From positions 42,547,554-42,611,553 of the forward strand of contig OX485803.1 of NCBI GenBank assembly GCA_950295325.1: a stretch of DNA of 64,000 bases. The letters are read 5' to 3'. The DNA is from Polytrichum commune. Taxonomy: Eukaryota; Streptophyta; Polytrichopsida; Polytrichales; Polytrichaceae. The position numbers and the translations under genes are program-made. How positions within the stretch are numbered: the first letter of the stretch is position 1; every line of letters begins with the position of its first letter. Below the pieces are notes generated by a model, which worked only from the letters and a program-made list of their open reading frames with translations, was not told the origin of the DNA and did not search any database. Below, in pieces: positions 8,454-58,048 of the stretch.

Positions 8454-9562
8454 CAGGCCATAAATTTGACACCCTAGCCAAATTTCCAGGGGACACCCTG
8501 TCCCAAATTTTGGGTGTCCCAAGGACACCCTGCTCCAATTTTTGGGTGTCCTCATAAATTTCTCTTAAATTATTTTTTTTGTCAAAATAGGTACAATTTT
8601 GAAAAATATATAATATCATTTCAAATTCTCAATCAAAAATCAAAAAAATCACTACATATCATAACTTGCAATGCAAATCAAACCTACAAGCGGCGGCCTT
8701 TCATAGCACACCACTTTACCCATACTTGTTCAAAGTCAATGGCCTCTATGGGGATTTTTGCCATTGCAACTCTCATTTGTAATTCCAAAGTCTCTAATAC
8801 CAAACTACACCGTAAAGTAGATTTAATATGATTTTGAGTAGAAAATCCTCTCTCACAAGAAGCTGTACTAGCAGGAATTACAAGAACAGCTTGCCACAAC
8901 TTTGTCATATGAGGATATCTTCCAACATAGTCCAAATTGGAAGAATAAACCATCCAAGCTTGGTGCATTTTAAGACCACCACATGAAATATGAAGTGTAT
9001 CCAAAAAACCTCGAAGCTCTGATTTTAAACCACGCTCATCAAAAAGATTCCCTCCATTAGTGCAGAAGTGGTCAATGAAACTCTGAAGCCATAAACGAGC
9101 ATTTCGATGAAGAAGTGTCAAGTCTGTTGAAAAACAGACAGGGCTAAATAGCTTAGCTGCATTGAAGAGCTTCAAATCATGAAATCGTTGCTGCAATGAT
9201 TCTATCACCTTAACCACATAGGCTTGTGCAATCACCTTGCACCCATGGAGGGTACCATCACCACCAAACTCAATTGCATGAGGCAATGGTGCATAATGCA
9301 ATATATGTGAATGCACCACTCCTGTAGAGTCTTGAAAATGGATCTCACCACCTCTAGAAATGTCCAAAAATTGTGCCACAAATTTGGTATCCGCTGATAG
9401 GCCCTACAAGTACAGGGGACACCCTGAATTTTTTTTGGGTGTAAAAAGGACACCCTTGTAGGATTTTTGGGTGTCCCCGAGGACACCCTGTTTGAGATTT
9501 GGGTGTCCTAGGACACTCTAGGAAGCAAAATACACCCCCCAGGGTGTCAATTTTATGCCCTA
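8454..9562 (-). mobile_element. hAT transposon, internally deleted, with 8-bp target duplication
   Basis: The left end is CAGGCCATAAATTTGACACC. The right end, reverse-complemented, is TAGGGCATAAAATTGACACC. Both are flanked by the perfect 8-bp direct repeat CTCAGAGC (8446-8453 and 9563-9570), as expected of hAT. Inside each end lie arrays of alternating GGACACCCTG and GGGTGTCC motifs (8490-8552 and 9415-9515), typical of hAT subterminal transposase-binding repeats. The element is only 1.1 kb and keeps just the 3' part of its transposase gene. Confidence 0.92.
8684..9404 (-). pseudogene. hAT transposase, C-terminal remnant with dimerisation domain
   Basis: About 235 continuous codons without an ATG at the front. 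The frame opens right where the subterminal repeats stop, so the N-terminal BED zinc finger and most of the catalytic core were lost in an internal deletion. The last 90 residues are the hAT C-terminal dimerisation region, with the signature LWQAVLVIPASTASCERGFS and then a series of short helices. In intact elements this domain pairs transposase subunits. No break was seen within the surviving part. The frame ends 230 bp inside the left TIR. It could not act alone. Confidence 0.88.
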
Positions 9563-10150: not shown

Positions 10151-10229
10151 TCATACAGCAGTGATACAGAGACTTGTGGCCATCTTAGTTAGACTTCTCA
10201 AGGATCTGAGTGATGAGAGACCTCTCTCA

Positions 10230-10808
10230 GGGCCACTTCACACACAAGGCTGAAGGCCCTTGACCATGGCAATGTAAGAGCTCTCATTGATCGAAAAAGG
10301 CGGAGACCGTCCAAGTTCACTTCACACTAGGAGGTGAAGGCCTAAAGGCCCAAAGAAAAGTTCGTGGATGAAAAGTCTACGTGGAGTCCTACATGGCTAG
10401 TTGTGGATAAGGGTGCATGGTCTACCGGAATTTGCGTCAGACCCACCTCCAAGAGGTGGGCTTGGCGCAAATTCCAGGAGACCATGACTTTTTTAATATT
10501 TTTTCCAACAGGAGAGATTTCAGGACAGACTGCATGGCAGATTCCAGGACAGACAAACACCACCAAGTAGTTATCTTGAATTGATCAACTTGGACACATA
10601 TTATATTAAACCAAATCCTCCCCTCTTTTTCTGCCAACAAAATATGCAATGGTCCCGCAACATGGTTCATTCTCACTTCACACTATGCTTGAGGACCAAA
10701 GACTACATAAAATGGCTTTCCCAACACCCATGGTACGACCTTTGGATGAGAGTCAAGGGTCCTCACCATTACAAGGTCACGGCTCTTGGCTCATGTGTGA
10801 AGTGGCCC
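10230..10808 (+). mobile_element. PIF/Harbinger-type MITE, family A copy 1
   Basis: A 579-bp element bounded by GGGCCACTTCACACA and its reverse complement, with TCA on each side (10227-10229 and 10809-10811). It is non-coding. An internal hairpin lies at about 10420-10486, where CATGGTCT...GGAATTTGCG faces CGCAAATTCC...AGACCATG. It is highly similar, in reverse orientation, to 45930-46519. A longer relative with a TAA duplication is at 35020-36643. Open frames seen here mirror those in the other copy and are shadows of the repeat. Confidence 0.88.
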
Positions 10809-10962
10809 TCACTCTCTGTCCCTGGACCATCCTCACTAATGTAGTCACAACAACCCTTTTCCTTGATAGGTGTGTGTGTGCACAAGCCAATCTCATAACA
10901 TATCTACTGATCTATTTCATGGTTCCCTCAAGGACTTCGTCGTCTGGTGTCTCTTACACACC

Positions 10963-11310: not shown

Positions 11311-11983
11311 CAATAAAGAGTCACAACTAAAAGGACATCCTTCATATTCCCAAAGCCATAATTTTACACACACCTCATAATACGAAGTTGATGGTGAGTG
11401 ACTAAGAATTTTTTAGCTAAGGATAACCACATTCTTAGCCATGCCTTGCTTCAACAAAACCAACCTAGCATTACCTCAACCTATCCAAAACTCTAGATTC
11501 ACATGCCATAAATGCTATTAGCCACTCTATCAGCATAATAACTACATTAGCACCCCCATTACACAACAAGGGCAACATAGGCCTCCTCAAACACCGATGA
11601 TGGTTGTAAATCATACCAGCATCTTCACTCCAACTAGAAAGTACCCCACATGCTCCCTCATAAGCTCCCCAAAAAAACCTTGTATGATCAAATCGAAACA
11701 CTGAAGGGTCCTCCTCCACCACCATCACTAAGCTCCGAGTTAATGTGTTGAGAGGCCTTGCCCGAATATGTGCCTACCTTGCCAATTGGGGACACACACA
11801 ATGAACAAAGCCAACCTCTAGCCCTCCCTCCCACGGTTGTCACACACCTAATTGTGAGGAAACAATATCATGAGAGTATGCAACCGGAGCTTCCTCAACT
11901 CTAGGCCCTTCCCATCCCCCTACAAGTGGCGCTCCCACACTATCTCCAATACATCACCCCCTCCGATTAATATTGAATTGGCC
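11311..11983. other. No gene recognised; insertion target of the Mutator-like element
   Basis: C-rich on the plus strand, with an 85-codon minus-strand frame at 11471-11728 of no known family. The character continues to the right of the transposon (18399-18490 and 20040-20600), so these were probably one stretch before the insertions. It may be remains of an older element or gene. Confidence 0.4.
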
Positions 11984-11993
11984 ACCTCCAAGT

Positions 11994-12061
11994 GGGGAGT
12001 GCTATCTTGTGAGCGGTGAGCAGTGAGCGGTGAGCGATGAGCGGTAATTTGTGAGCGGTGA
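11994..12061 (+). repeat. Left terminal inverted repeat of the MULE
   Basis: Begins GGGGAGTGCTATCTTGTGAG and continues with five or six heptads of TGAGCGG type. It pairs with 18321-18388. Heptad arrays inside a TIR are plausible repeated transposase contacts. Confidence 0.85.
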
Positions 12062-12685
12062 AGAAAACAAAATATTTGGTAATAGGACCCCTAGTATCCT
12101 ATAACCGTGGCCTAAAGAAATAAATTTTTAGGGTTCAATAATAAGAAGATTGGGGAGGACAAACAATATGAATGCTAGATTGCAAGTAGTGAGCAATGAA
12201 AAATACCAATATGTACATGACTCGGGGTTGTTAGTATGTGAGCATGCGAGTGTGAACTTGTGAGCCTTCAATTTTTTCCCGGTTATGGTTTGTAAATCCG
12301 TTGGGGGCCTATGATTGTGGAATTACATGTAAGGGTCTATAGTCCAAATGAACAACAAATGAGAATGTTGCTATAACAATTTTGTATAAAAAATGAACTA
12401 ATATACATTCAACTGTTGAGATAATAATAATGTAATTGGAGACAATGTGTAAGCAAACTCATGTTGAAAACAAGTGTAGCATGTTAGAATGTCTCACTAT
12501 AATACACATCAATGTAAAATTTGAATACATCATAACACTATCATGAGGGTGACATTTACGAAGTGCAAAACATAAAGAACAACAAAAGTGAATTGTAGAT
12601 ATAAATCGGGTAGTAGGTTTAAATTGTTGAAGTTCTTGGAAATCAAATATAAAAAATAAAAAATAATGGGCACATCATCCATACC

Positions 12686-14284
12686 ATCTGGACAATAGTT
12701 GATGGACACATGCATATTAGCCACAGTAGCATCAAAGAGCTTCTCGGTCTCAATAGCCAACTGCCAAATACAAAATAAAGATTAGAAAAATTGAATGATT
12801 GAAAAAATATTTTTTTTCAAAAAACATAGACAAAAATTTATCACCTGAGCCCACCAAGTAGCTTTATCAAGTCACTTACGAAACTCTATATCATTGAATT
12901 TTGGTTTCGGAAACTTGAGAGCCTCACGAAGAGTAGATGAACTGTTCCACCTCTCAAGCCACTTAATCTTCATAGATGTATCCATTGCCAAAGTTGCTAA
13001 CATCCAAAGTTTTTTTTGAATCATCTCAGGATTCTCATCGTGAGTTTCATAATGAGACTTCACCTGCTTTAAGAACATAGGACAATGTCTAGGATCTGCA
13101 ATGGAAAGTTGTTTCTTTAGTTCCAAATGGGAAGTCAATCCTACCCTCTCCACAGCTTTGGAAACAAATTCACCCACTGCACTTAAAGTCCAATATGTAG
13201 AATCAGGGTATTTCTCATAAAATTTCCTTTGAGCAGTAGCAGCAACATCTCCCAACTCTTGCTACACCAAGGAAAAAACATATAAGAGTATGATAAATCA
13301 CACATAATAAAAATAAGATGTAATAAAACACATAGTTATAGAATTCTAAATAAAAAGAAAAAAATATATACAAGAAAAAAAAAACGTGAAAAACTAATAT
13401 TTTAGAAAAATAACCTAATATAGAAATCCATTAAGAGCCTCAATAGTAAAAAGAAACCAAGTTCTATATTTGGATTTTTATTTGGCATCAACGGCAGTAA
13501 GATCTTCTTTGGAGACAACTTTTTTTAAATATGAAAGTGGTTGTCCAACAATGCTTTGAATGCGGCAAAGCTTATGAACAAGATTCGTACAAACATGGGA
13601 TTTTTAGTTCCTCATGACAAAATAAAACAACCAATGATAAGCCACGGAAAAGAAATATACAATAAAAAAATAAACTTAAAAGAAAACCAAATGAACCGAA
13701 CAAATAAAAAGAGAAGAATGAAGGAAGTATCACTTCATGTAAAGCTGCGAACATGGTTGTAATATCTCCCTTGACATCCAAAATAATACTTTCAACAGCA
13801 TAATGTCGAGCATGATCATGTATATGATCTCGATTAATAATGGGCAACCATGCTTGCAAACGGTGGTTTCCATCCCACATCATAAACATTTTGCGAGAGA
13901 ATACTTTGAGGTCCTCATCAGTTTGCAATATTTTTTCAAAGGCATCATTAGTCCGTACCCAATTTTCACTCCATGATTCAATGATATTATCAGTAATATT
14001 TATTGTTTTCCCCTCATTGTTTTCCAAGGCCACATAAAAAACCCCGTTGCCCTCCATATAACCACAAGCAACAAAATGTGCAGCCAGGTTCATAACGTTA
14101 TTTTTCAAAAAAGACCTAACAACAGGCAATGCAACCATTCGACATAGTGGAATGTTGAATTTTAATTGAGCCCTTGGTTGATACCTCAACCGTTCAAGAC
14201 AGGAGGATGTATTGATAGTTTCTTTTTTAAAAATGCATGCAATTGCAATTCCAATTGATCTTCAGAAAGATGTACAACTTCCAT
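12686..14284 (-). pseudogene. Spliced ParB-like gene carried by the MULE (damaged)
   Basis: Three predicted exons: 14284-13734 (ATG at 14284), 13261-12845 and 12760-12686. The introns have GT..AG borders (GTGATA donor and GTGTAG acceptor; CAGGTGATA donor and TTTGGCAG acceptor), and frame is kept across both junctions. Exon 1 carries MWDGNHRLQAW, matching the DG-x-HRL-x-A motif of the ParB/sulfiredoxin fold. A basic, helix-rich stretch precedes it and an acidic ILDVKGD strand follows. Exons 2-3 encode a helical region unlike anything I know (YEKYPDSTYWTLSAVGEF). Two breaks are visible: a frame change near 14190 between LSIHPPVLNG and RYQPRAQLKF, and an in-frame TGA at 12874-12872 between EFRK and LDKATWWAQ. 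The 3' end beyond 12686 is uncertain. It could be a MULE accessory gene or a captured host gene. Confidence 0.6.
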
Positions 14285-14460
14285 ATCTAAATCACAAAAA
14301 TATCATCCATATGAAAGATAAAACTAAATTAAAAGAAATATATACATATGAAAGAAATCACATATGCAAACTAAAATAATATACAAAAATATTTATGAAA
14401 GTAAGAGTATACATAAGGAAAAACCACATATAGAATAGAATCTGAAATTTCAATATGGAT

Positions 14461-15275
14461 GGCCGTTAACAGCCACCTTTGTAGGAGGAAAAAAAATGAA
14501 AGAAATAAGTGTATACATGAAGAAAAATACACATATAGAAAATAATATAAAATTTTAATAACGGTGGAAATGAGTGTATACATGAAAAAATAAACTTATA
14601 TACCAATAAATTTGAGATGCAACCAAGGGTGGCCGTTAACAGCCACACTTTTAGATGGAACAGACATAAGAAATATATGTATATATGTGATTTTATTTCA
14701 AAGAAATTATGTTGTTAAATGAAGACTGAAACCCAAAAAGAGGTACCCTAAACTAGAAAATAGAAGTTAGCATCATACAAAGGGTGGCCGTTGACGGCCA
14801 CCCTAAACTAGAACACAGAAGTTGGCATCATAAAAATGGTGGCCGTTAATGGCCAAACTTTTAGATGGAACAGAAATAAAAAATATATGTATATATATGA
14901 TTTTATTTCAAAGAAATTATGTTGTTAAATGAAGACTAAAACCCAAGAAGAGGTACCCTAAACTAGAAAATAGAAGTTAGCATCATACAAAGGGTGGCCG
15001 TTGACGGCCATCCTAAACTAGAACACAGAAGTTGGCATCATAAAAAGGGTGGCCGTTAACGGCCACACTTTTAGATGGAACAGACATAAGAAATATATGT
15101 ATATATGTGATTTTATTTCAAATAAAATATGTTGTTAAATGAAGACTGAAACCCAAGAACGGGTACCCTAAACTAGAAAATAGAAGTTAGCATCATACAA
15201 AAGGTGGCCGTTGACGGCCACCCTAAACTAGAACATAGAAGTTGGTATCATAAAAAGGGTGGCCGTTAACGGCTA
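14461..15275. repeat. 210-bp tandem array with eight palindromes
   Basis: Three near-identical 210-bp units span about 14628-15260. Each has two palindromic cores of GGCCGTTAACGGCC or GGCCGTTGACGGCC type. Cores lie at 14461, 14631, 14786, 14841, 14996, 15051, 15206 and 15261. One series (14631, 14841, 15051, 15261) and the other (14786, 14996, 15206) both step by exactly 210. The array sits between the start of the ParB-like gene and the transposase gene, where shared promoters or binding sites would be expected. Confidence 0.9.
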
Positions 15276-16139
15276 CCCATTTAGAAGAGAAATACACCTT
15301 GATTTGAGTCAGTTTCCGGAGTTGCTATAACATTTTCAAATATTCTAATTTATTTCCGAAAAAAATCAAGTGCATAGATTACAGCCTTGCCATGTACTCC
15401 AATTGTTTTCAGAATTTTTGGAGATGATATCAATTTTATATAAATCGCCAAAGTCTACTGAAATTAATATGATTAGATTTCCTGCATAAAATCTTCATTT
15501 TTTGAAGATTTTAGAAGAATCTAAGATGCTCTAATTGTTTTTTTGGCTCTAAAACATGCAAAACAAAATGATTTTATTTATGCTATTTACCGTTGGAATC
15601 GTATTCTCGGCATGCACAATATAATATACATTACATACCTCCAAATTTATTTTGATTTTAAAGTTATTTTCTTACGATTTTGTTCATACAACCTACCTCC
15701 ATCTCCGCCTCAGAAGATTGTTCTTCTTTTTCGTATTGTGTGGCATATTTCTCCATGGTTGCACGTGAGCGTACATGGCTTTTCTATTGTTCTACGAGTT
15801 TGGATAAGATGACCCAAAAATATATCAAACCATCATTGCAGTTTCAACACAAGTAATTATGTAAGGATTACAAAGACGCGAAAACAATGGACTACGCCGA
15901 GACTAAGTATCATGTGATTCGTTCTTGGTGGTTGTCATCCGGATCTGCCTCAGAAGAAGGCATCCTTGGCCTTTCAGAGTGGTTGGGTTTGTAGCACTTT
16001 CGTTACAGACAATGGGGTGGTCATATGTTATTTGTAAGTACATATCAAAATTCAATATTCAATGTTATTCATTTTTCTTTTATTATTATATATATTATAT
16101 ATTTTTATTATCCTCATATTTGTGTGTTGTTCATAAGAT
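15276..16139 (+). other. Upstream part of the MULE transposase gene, unresolved
   Basis: AT-rich, with no long frame. A good donor GTAAGT follows TATTT at about 16033, and an AG acceptor precedes the ATG at 16140. The exon before the donor may read STFVTDNGVV, which would suit the run-up to the catalytic Glu of a DDE transposase. A CATCTCCGCCTCAGAAGA-like phrase occurs at about 15701 and again in altered form near 15942. The two catalytic Asp motifs were not found, so the N-terminal two thirds seem lost or too decayed to read. Confidence 0.35.
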
Positions 16140-17503
16140 ATGACAATAGAACAACGTGCGGAAATGCCAACATACAACCTTGCAGAGACTGTACACAAAA
16201 AATGGCTCCAACAGTCCGGCAACAAGATGACTTGTTTATATGAAGCTACAGTGGATGACATGATCCGTGCCTTCATGCAAATTGCAAATTACCGGACATG
16301 GTTGAAAGGGGGTCTGATGATAAAGGTCTTGATTCGGCATCCTTGAAACTCAAAGCGGCTGCCAGGTGTGGGGATCCAAAAATGTTGGCTGATGCCATGA
16401 AGTCTTATCTAGGGGCAGAAGACGTCAACACTAAAGATTGTGCATTGGAAGGGTCAGAGCTCTTTGGTTCCACCAGACGCAAACTCAACCTATCACCGGA
16501 TGTTGATTATGACTCTCATCGACCCGACAAAGTGAACTATTTCATTCCTCGTCCCAACACCCGAGCAACTCGTCAACGTATAGAGGAATCGTTGAATTTT
16601 GCAATTCATGGTGTGGCTCATACCACATCTGTGTTAGAGACTGATTGTCTTGCTTCTAAGTGGCACATTGCAAGATTGCCACCCAACTCAGCCAAACAAT
16701 GTTGGGTACTGCAGGCCATTACAGGGACTATGTACAATACCAAAGTCGGGATTGGGAAACATGGCACACCTGCTCCAACATACAAAGGGCTCAGGAAGGA
16801 ATTTTGCTCTCCCTACAATGTGGAGTATGAATTTTGGTTTTGCCTTGACGATATTAAGCATTGTGTGAGTGGCAGTATGAAGAAATATGTGTTGGATTGG
16901 CCTATAGTACCCAACATGTGGCCGGTAAAGATAGGTACCAATCTATCGAGAGAGGAGGTTCTGGCATTTGAAGATGCTGAATTTCAACTACAGCAGAGGG
17001 AGGCATTGTCCCCTCGTCGTAGGCTTTCAACAATCGCAACTCTTCCCAAACCTCGCTCGCATTTTTGTATGCCACCAAACCCGGACGTCCACCCTACATT
17101 CAGGTTTGGGAAGACAGTGCGTCGTAATCCAACAGCACTGCTGGCGGATCACAAAAACAAATGGGAAAGCACCAGACTCATGGAAGATTACTATGTGGTT
17201 GGGGTCACTACCATTCCATATCCGGGCTTTGGAGTGATAATCAACATTGTCTCCAAGCAAGATATCACCTACCATGTCACAAATTGGCGACATCCCACAT
17301 TGCACATGCCCGGATTTCACGAAAATGTCATCTCATGCATCGGGAAAAAAAGGAAAATGGGGTATTGTAAACATCTTTATTATGTGTTTAGATTTTTGTG
17401 CAAGGTGGATTACGAGAGTGACAAGTTCATTCATGCACCTACATATACATATAATGGGGTCATGCAACTACTTGAACTTGCTGATATTGTAAAATGTGAG
17501 TAG
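16140..17503 (+). pseudogene. Mutator-like transposase, C-terminal part with SWIM zinc finger
   Basis: The first frame (16140 to about 16310) carries YNLAETVHKKWLQQSG. This matches the T/S-x-N-x-AE-x-x-H pattern around the catalytic Glu of MULE-type DDE transposases, the Glu being codon 16185-16187. The next frame (16298-17503) continues after a one-base shift at the run of G near 16308 and gives about 400 residues. Near its end is a SWIM zinc finger, C-x-C then C-x-H: HCTCPDF and YCKHLYYVF. The HCTC part is in a different frame from the rest between about 17280 and 17362, so two compensating small indels bracket it. SWIM fingers follow the DDE core in Mutator transposases and are thought to help bind DNA. 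The middle 300 residues are unfamiliar. Confidence 0.7.
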
Positions 17504-17639
17504 CATTGCAAGTGTTTTATTAAGCAACATATATTTGAATGTCAATAAATGGCATGTTTTGGTTTGGATTATTATAACAAAAATTAGTTATGGACTGAAA
17601 GTCTTTCAAATGATTCAGTAACTTCAATTCTATTTAGAC

Positions 17640-18002
17640 TACGACCCAACCGTGAGCGGTTTGATTGAATCACACAGATAAATAATAACAAGTTTCTAAA
17701 AATAAAAAATAATCGACAAGATTCTACGCACATCCGCGTAGTAACCTCTTCTTGGTATCCGCCTATAGATTATTCCTACTTTATCATTAGCTCAATTTGG
17801 GATAGCACCAGTCAATGTAACCAACCGGATTCGAACCTGGGTTGATCCAGACCTAATACCAGTCTCTTACACAACTCGCATCTACAGGCGGATGTCTCAA
17901 AATCTAGTAGCTACCTACATATTGACTGTTTCTAATATCTAATTTCCTTGCTTTTGTAGATTGTGGGCCTTAACTGAGCCCGTGAGCGGTTTGAGTGGTT
18001 CA
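17640..18002 (-). mobile_element. Possible tRNA-like SINE inside the MULE 3' flank
   Basis: On the minus strand a perfect pol III B box, GGTTCGAATCC, lies at 17837-17827. An A-box-like GCGAGTTGTGTAAGAGACTG sits about 40-60 bp upstream, like the two boxes of a tRNA-derived SINE. Direct repeats of GTGAGCGGTTTGA occur at about 17652 and 17982. An A/T-rich tail lies near 17700 on the plus strand. No second copy was found in the window, so the call rests on the boxes alone. Confidence 0.4.
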
Positions 18003-18010
18003 CAATTATG

Positions 18011-18205
18011 ACACCTACATATACGTATAATGAGGTTATGCACCTACTTGAACTTGTTGGTGTTGTGAAATGTGAGTAGTTGTACAAGTGTGGGTTGTAA
18101 CTACATGTATAAGGATATCAATAAATGACATGTATTGGTTTGGATTATTATAATAAAAATCAGCAATGGATTGAAAGTGTTTAAAATGATCCATGGCAAT
18201 AGGGT
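18011..18205 (+). pseudogene. Duplicated C-terminal end of the MULE transposase gene
   Basis: Repeats 17436-17625 at an offset of 575 bp. It encodes the same tail (TPTYTYNEVMHLLELVGVVK, then CE and a stop) followed by matching 3' sequence with AATAAATG and GGTTTGGATTATTATAA. The intervening piece holds the SINE-like sequence. It lacks any start and cannot be a gene by itself. Confidence 0.75.
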
Positions 18206-18320
18206 CCTTTCACGTGTGCTTCATTTAAAATACTGGCAATTTACAATTGAAAATATGCAATTAATTTGTCAAAATTCTGGTTATGTACCCTAAACCCGTA
18301 TGTCTTTACTAAATTTGGAG

Positions 18321-18388
18321 TCATTGCTCATATGTTACTGCTCACCACTCACCGCTCACTGCTCATCGCTCATAAGATAGCTTCCCTC
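18321..18388 (-). repeat. Right terminal inverted repeat of the MULE
   Basis: The reverse complement begins GAGGGAAGCTATCTTATGAG and continues with the same TGAGC heptads as the left end. It is followed directly by the 10-bp target duplication at 18389-18398. Confidence 0.85.
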
Positions 18389-18497
18389 ACCTCCAAGTCA
18401 ACCATCCCTACCACCAAAGCCATCTTCCAAAAGTGCAGAGACAAAGTCGACATTGGACTACAACCCAGGGCATGCCCACCTCACTAAGGGCCACTAA

Positions 18498-45926: not shown

Positions 45927-45929
45927 TCA

Positions 45930-46519
45930 GGGCCACTTCACACATGAGCCAAGAGCCGCGACCTTGTAATGGTGAGGACCCTTGACTCTCATCCAAAGGC
46001 CGTACCATGGGTGTTGGGAAAGCCATTTTATGTAGTCTTTGGCCCTCAAGCATAGTGTGAAGTGAGAATGAACCATGTTGCGGGACCATTGCATATTTTG
46101 TTGGCGGAAAAAGAGGGGAGGGTTTGGTTTAATATAATATGTCTCCAAGTTTATCAATTTAAGATAACTACTTGGTGGTGTTTGTTTGTCCTAGAATCTG
46201 TCCTGGAATCTGCCATGCAGTCTGTACTGAAATCTATCCTGCTGGAAAAAATATTAAAAAAGTCATGGTCTCCCGAAATTTGCGCCAAGCCCACCTCTTG
46301 GAGGTGGGTCTGACGCAAATTCCGGTAGACCATGCTCCCTTATCCACAACTAGCCATGTAGGACTCCATGTAGACTTTTCATCCACGAACTTTTCGTTGG
46401 GCCTTTAGGCCTTCACCTCCTAGTGTGAAGTGAACTTGGACGGTCTCCACCTTTTCGACCAATGAGAGCACTTACATTGCCATGGTCAAGGGCCTTCAGC
46501 CTTGTGTGTGAAGTGGCCC
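45930..46519 (-). mobile_element. PIF/Harbinger-type MITE, family A copy 2
   Basis: A 590-bp reverse-orientation partner of 10230-10808, ending GGGCCACTTCACACA on both sides with TCA at 45927-45929 and 46520-46522. Differences are few (for example one extra repeat of the CCTGGAATCTG phrase), so the family amplified fairly recently. A further family-like tip (AAAGTGGCCCTAATT) lies at about 46530. Confidence 0.88.
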
Positions 46520-46914
46520 TCAATCTGGCACCAGGTTTAAAGTGGCCCTAATTAGTAATGTTATGTCCAAGTAAGGAGGTTGTCCCAATTCAATCGAGGC
46601 CGTAATATGAAATGGCATCTTCAGAATCAAAAAAACTGCTTATTCTAGACGTTCAAAATGTATTATCAGTCCCTGCAAAGAGTGATCCGTACTTTTAAAA
46701 TATTACGTTCCCTTGGAAAGTGTCTAAAATTAATTAAAGTGTGACCGCGGACGCCAGATCAGACCACATGCACCATGCATTTTGGCACCTCGCTTTGGAT
46801 GAGGATCCTGAAACCAAGGAGCTGAAATAGGTCATCTGCTTTTGCCACATGGAAGAGCGGAAATAAGTCAGTCACTTCACCGCAACTGGAAGAGCCGTTA
46901 GTCTTCTGCTGGAC

Positions 46915-47850: not shown

Positions 47851-48942
47851 GGCTAGGGTGAACTAGCACCTACACTCGTACCTTCGGGGGATGAAGGCCT
47901 CGTGGATGACACTGAAAACTTCATCCTTCTTTATGGGGAAGCCCGCTTGACTACAAATCCCATATTGAGTGCACTTCGCCTTCAAGGTCTAAAATCCAAT
48001 ATATATGTTCACTTCCAATTAGTAAATAAGCAATTCATTGGGATTTCATTCCAGAAGTGAAACCATCAATGAAGCATGTAATCAACTTGGAGGTCAAATA
48101 AAATTACAAAATCCTCATTAACATTGAGGTTATAATTTTTTTGACTTACCATTTGAAATTCTCTTTGTCATTCTAAAATGACACTTAAAGTTAGTGTGCT
48201 GATTTAGTATGTTTATTTTATAATATTTTAATAACGCCGCCTACTTTCACAAGTATTCATACACATTCAAACCAATTAAGTGTGATTTAATGTCATTAAG
48301 TCTAATTAATTCTGATGAATCCTATTTAAGCCCAAATAAATCAAAAAAGTGTGCTTACCAAATAAAGTAAGACTAATTAATTATAATGTTTAATTACTGT
48401 AATTTAATTCAATTACTTCCAGTAATTAACTGAACCAATTCATTCCAGTAATTCATTTCAGCAATTAAATTGATTAATTAATTCCAGTAATTACATTTAA
48501 TTAATTAATTCCAGTAGTTTATTTATTTATTTATGAATACTTGTGAAAGTAGGCGGCGTTATTAAAATATTATAAAATAAACATACTAAATCAGCACACT
48601 AAATTTAAGCGTCACTTTAGAATGACAAAGAGAATTTTAAATGGTAAGTCAAAAAAATTATAACCTCAATGTTAATGAGGATTTTGTAATTTTATTTGAC
48701 CTCCAAGTTGATTACATGCTTCATTGATGGTTTCACTTCCGGAATGAAATCCCAATGAATTGCTTATTTACTAGTTGGAAGTGCACATATATATTGGATT
48801 TTAGACCTTGAAGGCGAAGTGCACTCAATATGGGATTTGTAGTCAAGCGGGCTTCCCCATAAAGAAGGATGAAGTTTTCAGTGTCATCCGCGAGGCCTTC
48901 ATCCCCCGAAGGTACGAGTGTAGGTGCTGGTTCACCCTAGCC
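47851..48942. mobile_element. Mutator-type foldback element, 410-bp arms, 9-bp target duplication
   Basis: A 1092-bp element. The arms 47851-48260 and 48533-48942 are inverted repeats of equal length, with about ten mismatches by eye (near 97-98 percent). The tips are GGCTAGGGTGAACTAGCACC and its partner GGCTAGGGTGAACCAGCACC. The perfect direct repeat CTCAAAAAT flanks both sides (47842-47850 and 48943-48951). A 9-bp duplication with long TIRs fits a non-autonomous Mutator-type element. The loop (48261-48532) is AT-rich with repeated AATTAATTCCAGTAATT-like phrases. It is unrelated in sequence to the MULE at 12-18 kb. Confidence 0.9.
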
Positions 48943-56399: not shown

Positions 56400-56710
56400 T
56401 CAAAAACTTCCCGAACTCTGCTTAGAAGTGAACGATTTCTTCAGGGAATTCTTCAAAACCCATGAATTTGTTTCCTCGATTCCGTTATGTAAACGTTGTG
56501 CAGAAACGGCAGGCTCCATCTGCTGCGAGTCGTGCCGTTGGGTGAGTACTTTTTCTTGTTGTGGTAGCAGCTTCCGATTGTTGTGAACGGTCACCCTAAT
56601 TACTCTAGGGTTGTTGACAACCAGACGACTAGGGTGGCAAACCACAGCAAGGAAAGCAAAGCAGAGGAAAGGATTGGATTCCAAGGTGTTGCGTATGGGC
56701 ATCGCATGTG

Positions 56711-58048
56711 ATGGGGGTCGGAGTTCGTAGAAATGGGTGGAAGATGCGTCATGTGAAGGTTGTGCGAGTAACGCGCCTCGTGCGCAGCCGACAGGCAAGT
56801 GGGAATCCCAGTGATAAGGCTGCAATCTCAAGCGATGCAAGAGAGTTGGAGGGTGATGGTGGCGGCGGCGGCAGCAGCAACTCCTTCTCCTTTTCCATTC
56901 CAGGAGATGTGCAGGACATTATAATAGCAAAGCTTCCATTTACAGATCTATATCGATGCCTCTCAGTGAGTAAATACTACAGAGGAGTAGTGCACCGCCG
57001 CACATTTCAGGTTGCACGGTCGCTGGCTTATCCTAACGAGTTCTCTTTAAGCCCTGTGGTATTTTATGTGAATGACGAGGAGGTTTGGAGTGTGCTGGGT
57101 TTTGATATCAGTGCCCAGACATGGCGGAGGCTGCCCCCCCTCAAGATGCTTCCTGCTCCAGATCCGGAGTTGTTCAAGGATTTTCTTGTAGCAGGGGGGG
57201 TGGGGCTATTCTGTGTAAATGTGGGTAAATCGCCAGACAAGGAGAAGCTGATTGTATGTAACCCACTTACGCAGGAGGTAAGGAATCTTCCGCCATTAAA
57301 TTATCCAAGGCACCCTGTCGTAATGTGCGTTCATGTGAATCTGACTGCGAATACATACACAGTAATAGTGGCCGGCAGCTCCGGCATTGGCACTGAGAAA
57401 CTCTCCAAGAAGACTGAAATTTACAACTCGGTTGTAAAAAAATGGGTCACAGTTGGGGATGTCCCCGGCCCAGATTTTGCCCTGAATGAATATCAAACTG
57501 GGTCTTATTGCGAAAAACGGAGTATCTTGTTTTGCATAGGGTTCCTAGATGGAGGGGGCAAAGGAATTTTGGCTTTTCATTTGGAGAAGCGTGAATGGCT
57601 TAATGAATGGCGATGTACTCTGCCATCACCATCCTTTGCAGAAAACAGGCTGATAACATACTTTGCAATCACCCAGCTTGTGGTGTGCAGTGGCATGATC
57701 TACCTCTTCTCTGAGCAAGAGTTTGGCAGAGATGTCAAACATTGCATTCATATGCTAAACTTTGAGAAAGAAGGTGGAGACAGGTGGACAAGAGTGGTGG
57801 AGGAATCCAGGAAAGGGATCCGGGCTCTACTTGTGTACCCAGAATATTGCTGTGTCCCTCAGGGTAAAGGCAGGTTATGCATCTTCAATACAATTGAAAG
57901 AACAGGGGATGTGTATGACATACAGGAGAACATCGTTGTCAAAAAGGAGTCACTACCTCAACCTCCTTCCAGCCAAATAGGAGTCATGTTTCATAGCCTG
58001 AATCCTATTGGGTATACATTTGAGCCCAGCTTTGGAGTATCCGTTTGA
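56711..58048 (+). CDS. F-box protein with a kelch-like/FBA-type C-terminal domain
   Basis: An intronless frame of 445 residues from the ATG at 56711. The frame is open slightly upstream (GTG at 56708), but the ATG is the natural start. Residues 1-61 are a basic leader followed by an acidic and then Gly/Ser-rich linker. The F-box lies at about residues 62-98 (IPGDVQDIIIAKLPFTDLYR, then CLSVSKYYRGVV). F-box domains bind SKP1 and make the protein the substrate receptor of an SCF ubiquitin ligase. Residues 100-440 resemble the propeller-type region of plant F-box/kelch proteins: WRRLPPL, LIVCNPLTQEVRNLPPL, TEIYNSVVKKWVTVGDVPGP and a following run of strands. This part would pick the target protein, which is unknown. 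Length is typical (about 400-450). No frameshift is seen. It is the only clearly functional host gene in the window. Confidence 0.9.
   Translation: MGVGVRRNGWKMRHVKVVRVTRLVRSRQASGNPSDKAAISSDARELEGDGGGGGSSNSFSFSIPGDVQDIIIAKLPFTDLYRCLSVSKYYRGVVHRRTFQVARSLAYPNEFSLSPVVFYVNDEEVWSVLGFDISAQTWRRLPPLKMLPAPDPELFKDFLVAGGVGLFCVNVGKSPDKEKLIVCNPLTQEVRNLPPLNYPRHPVVMCVHVNLTANTYTVIVAGSSGIGTEKLSKKTEIYNSVVKKWVTVGDVPGPDFALNEYQTGSYCEKRSILFCIGFLDGGGKGILAFHLEKREWLNEWRCTLPSPSFAENRLITYFAITQLVVCSGMIYLFSEQEFGRDVKHCIHMLNFEKEGGDRWTRVVEESRKGIRALLVYPEYCCVPQGKGRLCIFNTIERTGDVYDIQENIVVKKESLPQPPSSQIGVMFHSLNPIGYTFEPSFGVSV

Follow-up and report, generated by a model that had tools for sequence, protein, structure and literature searches.

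The DNA analyzed here is a 64,000-nucleotide stretch of the Polytrichum commune genome (contig OX485803.1), referred to below as the window. At positions 11994-18388 it contains an element which carries parts of two divergent genes, a transposase tail on the plus strand and an antisense gene on the minus strand, separated by an array of palindromes. The boundaries of the element were set by its ends and a target-site duplication (TSD). Its inverted arms (11992-12061 and 18321-18390) are 70 nt long and, being imperfect, 80% complementary. They gave a local alignment score of 43, compared with a maximum of 21 for 2000 random pairs of 140-bp stretches from the same window. The terminal inverted repeats (TIRs) lie at 11994-12061 (left, plus strand) and 18321-18388 (right, minus strand). 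The left repeat starts with GGGGAGTGCTATCTT, after which TGAGC heptads follow. Tandem Repeats Finder (TRF) reported a period of 7 at both ends, with 7.6 copies on the left and 4.7 on the right, and TGAGC copies are spaced 7 or 14 bp apart in both arms. The sequence ACCTCCAAGT at 11984-11993 is repeated identically at 18389-18398. This duplication is perfect at 10 bp, but a C precedes each copy and an 11-bp duplication is consequently equally possible; the left copy would then span 11983-11993 and the right TIR would end at 18387. Thus, the TIRs of about 68 bp with TGAGC heptads and the 10-bp duplication proposed in the initial annotation were both borne out. The observed/expected CpG ratio is 0.59 within the element, and 0.39 and 0.40 in the 10-kb flanks.

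On the plus strand, the transposase tail extends from 16138 to 17503. It comprises the sequence NLAETVHKKW near 16176, a long middle region and a SWIM-type C-x-C / C-x-H motif at about 17301-17374. Most of it is read in a stop-free frame of 414 amino acids (16259-17503), and NLAETVHKKW is carried by a shorter frame immediately upstream. The 414-amino-acid frame and a minus-strand frame of 229 amino acids are both longer than any stop-free run produced by 300 first-order Markov simulations of the element (maximum 196 amino acids). To be read as one protein the tail requires three frame changes, one near 16310 and two between 17283 and 17363. Two of the three lie in or beside homopolymers and may therefore be assembly errors. 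A plus-strand transposase tail with a catalytic glutamate and a SWIM finger had been claimed before. Both AETVH (at about 16182) and the C-x-C / C-x-H pattern are indeed present, and the glutamate of AETVH may be a catalytic residue. The SWIM-type motif, however, is split: CTCPDF (from about 17301) lies in the frame 17283-17363, whereas GYCKHL (to about 17374) belongs to the outer frame, and the joined sequence stayed below the Pfam cut-off as detailed below. Further upstream, 15921-16033 (+) is a possible transposase exon which ends at a GTAAGT donor; its protein-like frame joins the next exon only by way of a frame change. A second, diverged copy (81%) of the 3' end of the transposase together with the sequence behind it (17429-17614) was found near the right end of the element at 18005-18190 (+), with 70.8% identity over 24 amino acids in tblastn.

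The antisense gene runs on the minus strand from an ATG at 14284 to approximately 12659. According to our frame reading its coding pieces are approximately 14284-14189, 14183-13734, 13610-13415, 13261-12845 and 12760 to about 12659. The codons of the motif DGNHRLQAW, counted from the three-frame translation, occupy 13848-13874 and lie inside the 229-amino-acid stop-free frame (13572-14261). The initial annotation had described a spliced gene with this motif. The motif and two of the three introns (13414-13262 and 12844-12761, both in-phase GT-AG) agree with that description. In contrast, the first proposed intron (13733-13611) possesses GT and AG but the frames read do not join across it, the frame changes near 14186, and four in-frame stops interrupt the gene (TAA at 13606, TAA at 13480, TAG at 13417 and TGA at 12874). 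In this copy, then, neither gene is intact.

Between the divergent genes, eight copies of the 16-bp palindrome TGGCCGTTRACGGCCA, each with at most one mismatch, lie at 14460-15275. They start at 14460, 14630, 14785, 14840, 14995, 15050, 15205 and 15260. The eight places correspond to 16 strand matches where 0.35 were expected, a number reached by none of 100 shuffles, and up to three mismatches no further copy was found outside the array in the 64 kb. Seven of the eight palindromes are placed at steps of 55 and 155 bp inside a 210-bp tandem repeat (3.1 copies, 14625-15285; TRF), which is preceded by a more diverged repeat at 14331-14631. The whole palindrome and tandem-repeat region spans 14460-15285; it was absent from the initial annotation and is a feature new to this analysis. 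When one pair of diverged repeat units was compared, the palindrome core was identical in 16 of 16 columns and the remainder in 78 of 111. This single comparison hints at constraint on the core, with a probability of 0.0035 if the columns are independent.

A MULE (Mutator-like element) with an antisense second gene is the reading that best accounts for the ends, the TSD and the SWIM-type tail. MULEs are described as having TSDs of 8-11 bp, and those of plants commonly carry a second open reading frame (ORF) in antisense orientation (PMC6446971, PMC9168764); an antisense second gene is thus not unusual. The element has both TIRs and a TSD within this range, and it very probably is of the MULE type. 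The earlier proposal of a Mutator-like element with a second gene accordingly fits a known layout. MULEs with an antisense second ORF, such as MuDR with mudrB, the groups bearing a plant mobile domain (PMD) and Abermu, resemble it in TIRs, an 8-11 bp TSD, a putative SWIM-type transposase and a gene on the opposite strand. They differ from it in that the second gene found here has no Pfam family above the cut-off, the plant mobile domain not being listed within the HMMER filters applied, and in that the descriptions consulted mention neither heptad arrays in the TIRs nor an array of palindromes. For the antisense protein Pfam listed none of the second-gene domains PMD, ULP1, SET and OTU.

A possible role for the second gene is suggested by the VANDAL group of MULEs. 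In these elements, VANC proteins attach to short motifs within tandem repeats of non-coding sequence, and DNA methylation is lost (PMC5735166, PMC10398659). The likeness lies in an accessory gene accompanied by short motifs within the element's own non-coding tandem repeats. We tentatively put forward, as a reading with somewhat less than an even chance of being correct, that the element is a single, dead copy of a cut-and-paste transposon of the Mutator-like type with two genes, the antisense one encoding a sequence-specific regulator working through the array. The ends and the target duplication would reflect cut-and-paste transposition by a MULE-type transposase. A full-length relative would have supplied, or may still supply, the transposase recognizing the TGAGC-heptad ends. 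The antisense protein would bind the palindromes of the intergenic tandem repeats and thereby govern the expression or silencing of the element. Taken by itself, this regulatory function of the second gene is possible but doubtful. The copy described here is unable to encode its transposase, its region for the first catalytic residues being decayed or deleted and the frames of both genes being broken.

Several results weigh against this two-gene reading. Pfam SWIM matched the joined transposase frames with only 13.8 bits (E 0.045; cut-off 19.6), and the other best Pfam matches of the joined proteins, DUF3269 (E 0.066) and DUF7199 (E 0.083), were equally unconvincing; DUF3269 was the only family listed for the antisense protein. 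The separate plus- and minus-strand frames gave no Pfam match at E values up to 1. Three frames upstream of the tail (15286 to about 16035) gave none at E values up to 10, and the region with the first catalytic residues is therefore not recognizable; the catalytic aspartates of a transposase were not found. NCBIfam returned no match for either protein, and the best PHROGs matches (E 0.15-0.71) were not convincing. Libraries thus left the family of the antisense gene unplaced. Only a single copy of the proposed two-gene element is present in the 64-kb window. The palindrome described here is 16 bp long, whereas the VANC21 target motifs are 9 bp long, non-palindromic and in one orientation (PMC5735166); the two systems are likened by their layout. 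Moreover, all but one of the eight palindromes belong to near-identical 210-bp units, so that their number largely reflects duplication, a process which the shuffles did not model. Tandem repeats in transposons are also frequently without meaning.

The weakness of the transposase matches bears on the class of the element as well. Pfam scans of joined, separate and upstream frames listed neither a MULE nor a DDE family, and with the SWIM match below its cut-off the long inverted repeats and the SWIM-type protein might belong to a DNA transposon outside the MULEs. We consider this very unlikely. A TSD of 10-11 bp, TIRs of about 70 bp starting with GGGG or GAGGG and the order of NLAExxH followed by SWIM appear to suit MULEs best. 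In MULEs generally, TIRs are usually long, and a SWIM or other zinc finger is frequent in the transposase but not universal.

The antisense gene could also be explained without any part in transposition. The element would then be a Pack-MULE, i.e. a non-autonomous MULE, and the gene a captured portion of a host gene. MULEs frequently capture host genes (PMC6446971, PMC9168764), and the antisense gene retains introns, is decaying and occurs once in the window. On the other hand, a captured piece of about 420 codons with several coding pieces and an ATG would be unusually complete, and the divergent layout around the repeat array appears organized rather than random, although neither point is decisive. 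We regard the Pack-MULE explanation as rather unlikely; a regulatory function of the antisense gene appears slightly likelier than the capture of a host gene that plays no part in the element.

The initial annotation had assigned the antisense protein to the ParB/sulfiredoxin fold because of DGNHRLQAW. Signatures such as DGQQR, DGQHR and FGGCHR mark ParB/sulfiredoxin-fold and related proteins (PMC4619093), and nuclease and nucleoside triphosphatase roles have been described for such domains (PMC5512222). DGNHRLQAW resembles these signatures and agrees with a motif of the type DG(Q/N/H)(Q/H)R, in which the N variant is an extension made here. The same variant occurs in L002, a ParB-like planctomycete protein with DGNHRLEAW. 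In addition, the hydrophobic pattern flanking the motif could, by eye, suit the ParB order of strands and helices. The family assignment was to be checked by profile searches of the minus-strand protein, and these gave no ParB or sulfiredoxin match in Pfam, NCBIfam or PHROGs. Among PDB sequences no ParB or sulfiredoxin protein matched either. L002 was likewise unplaced by Pfam, and the silence of Pfam on the antisense protein is for this reason weak evidence.

A scan of bacterial and archaeal genomes for motifs of the DGNHRLQAW type, with a DNA pattern loose enough to accept S in place of R and F in place of L, yielded 23 loci. By reading, L002 appeared ParB-like, three loci (L005, L015 and L021) seemed to form one other family and 19 resembled mostly chance frames. 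When L002 was used as query against 59 genomes of one phylum, it matched in its own genome only, where a diverged second match (L037) was also found. Viral contigs gave no relative: two protein-pattern scans matched 0 and 3 stretches and the motif scan gave 0 matches. In tblastn against plasmids and phages a single match each was obtained (E 2 and E 7), which we took as chance. The three loci of the other family are bacterial proteins, two of them from metagenome-assembled genomes of candidate phyla, which share FPKPI..L and DGNHRFxAW (L005:469-1137, L015:7442-7999 and L021:2539-3114). None of them had a Pfam match above the cut-off, the best being DUF1015 with E 0.057 for L015.

A calibrated hhalign comparison used a profile built from ten bacterial ParB_N domains; there were eleven matches, of which L030 was left out for its short flank. 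The antisense protein scored 14.0. This score was equalled or exceeded by 26 of 300 shuffles and by 25 of 219 decoys, the latter being uncurated open stretches in any of the six frames of the retrieved loci, with L002, L030, L036 and L037 still among them. The result is thus at chance level, and the best alignment excludes the DGNHRLQAW motif. The divergent L002 reached 34.8 against the same profile, and the test consequently has some power. The 22 motif-picked bacterial loci other than L002 ranged from 8.8 to 17.5. Five of them equalled or exceeded the antisense protein: two belong to the three-member second family, the other three to the 19 chance-like frames. Two variants of the comparison were discarded. 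With a profile that also included L002, itself picked by the motif, and its relative L037, the protein scored 25.6, a value reached by 0 of 300 shuffles and 2 of 219 decoys, but the alignment covered only 12 columns, all at the motif; this is circular and was not counted. A post-hoc change in which the loop joining putative strands 2 and 3 was removed gave 13.2 and hence no gain. AlphaFold models of the antisense protein were unusable, with a mean predicted local distance difference test (pLDDT) value of 35.5 for the protein alone and 32.6 with two distant rows added.

Apparently, then, the ParB/sulfiredoxin assignment is a resemblance of the motif, unproven rather than refuted, and a two-gene MULE with a true partner of this fold seems improbable to us. 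Among eukaryotic transposons, an accessory gene of the ParB-like kind would have a precedent, since Sola1-1_Ec32 of Ectocarpus carries a gene for a ParB-like and methyltransferase protein antisense to its transposase gene; similar algal proteins are mentioned as well (PMC12477816). The two elements are alike in an accessory gene antisense to the transposase, for which a ParB-like domain was predicted in Ectocarpus. They differ in that Sola1-1_Ec32 belongs to another superfamily and has an extra DNA methyltransferase domain, while the link to ParB in the moss-derived sequence is the motif. The earlier statement that no MULE with a ParB-like partner is known held within the open-access literature surveyed largely by title, which makes it weak evidence; the main text of one MULE survey (PMC6446971) has 0 occurrences of 'ParB'. 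A still bolder variant would see a partition-like module in a plant MULE lineage, with a ParB/sulfiredoxin-fold accessory protein and a parS-like palindrome array directly upstream of its gene; the protein would load there, spread over the element, and block silencing or aid transposition, which would make the module a MULE equivalent of the operator/ParB pairs of bacteria. We give this variant little credence.

How mobile DNA evades silencing by its host is illustrated by transposons that encode sequence-specific regulators of their own, and VANDAL elements with their VANC proteins are the plant example in the literature examined. If the two-gene reading with a regulator holds, an accessory gene beside its own array of candidate sites would be a possible independent case, and the defined motif would allow a direct binding test. 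Should the fold prove to be of the ParB type, an accessory domain of algal transposons would be extended to plant MULEs, as far as the literature examined goes.

Other features were observed in and around the element. Inside it, the region 17730-17960 contains a tRNA-type B-box, CCCAGGTTCGAATCCGG, on the minus strand at 17825-17841 between two copies of CCGTGAGCGGTTTGA. This region is possibly the remnant of a short interspersed element (SINE); Rfam and ARAGORN called nothing over the window, the B-box region included. Outside the element, 8684-9403 on the minus strand encodes a hAT transposase dimerization region (Pfam, 1.6e-7). A frame of 471 amino acids at 56633-58048 on the plus strand matched Kelch_6 (8.6e-6) and by eye is F-box/kelch-like. 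Two inverted repeat pairs, 10229-10809 with 45929-46520 (94.6% identity) and 47851-48261 with 48532-48942 (97.8% identity), are probably other mobile elements.

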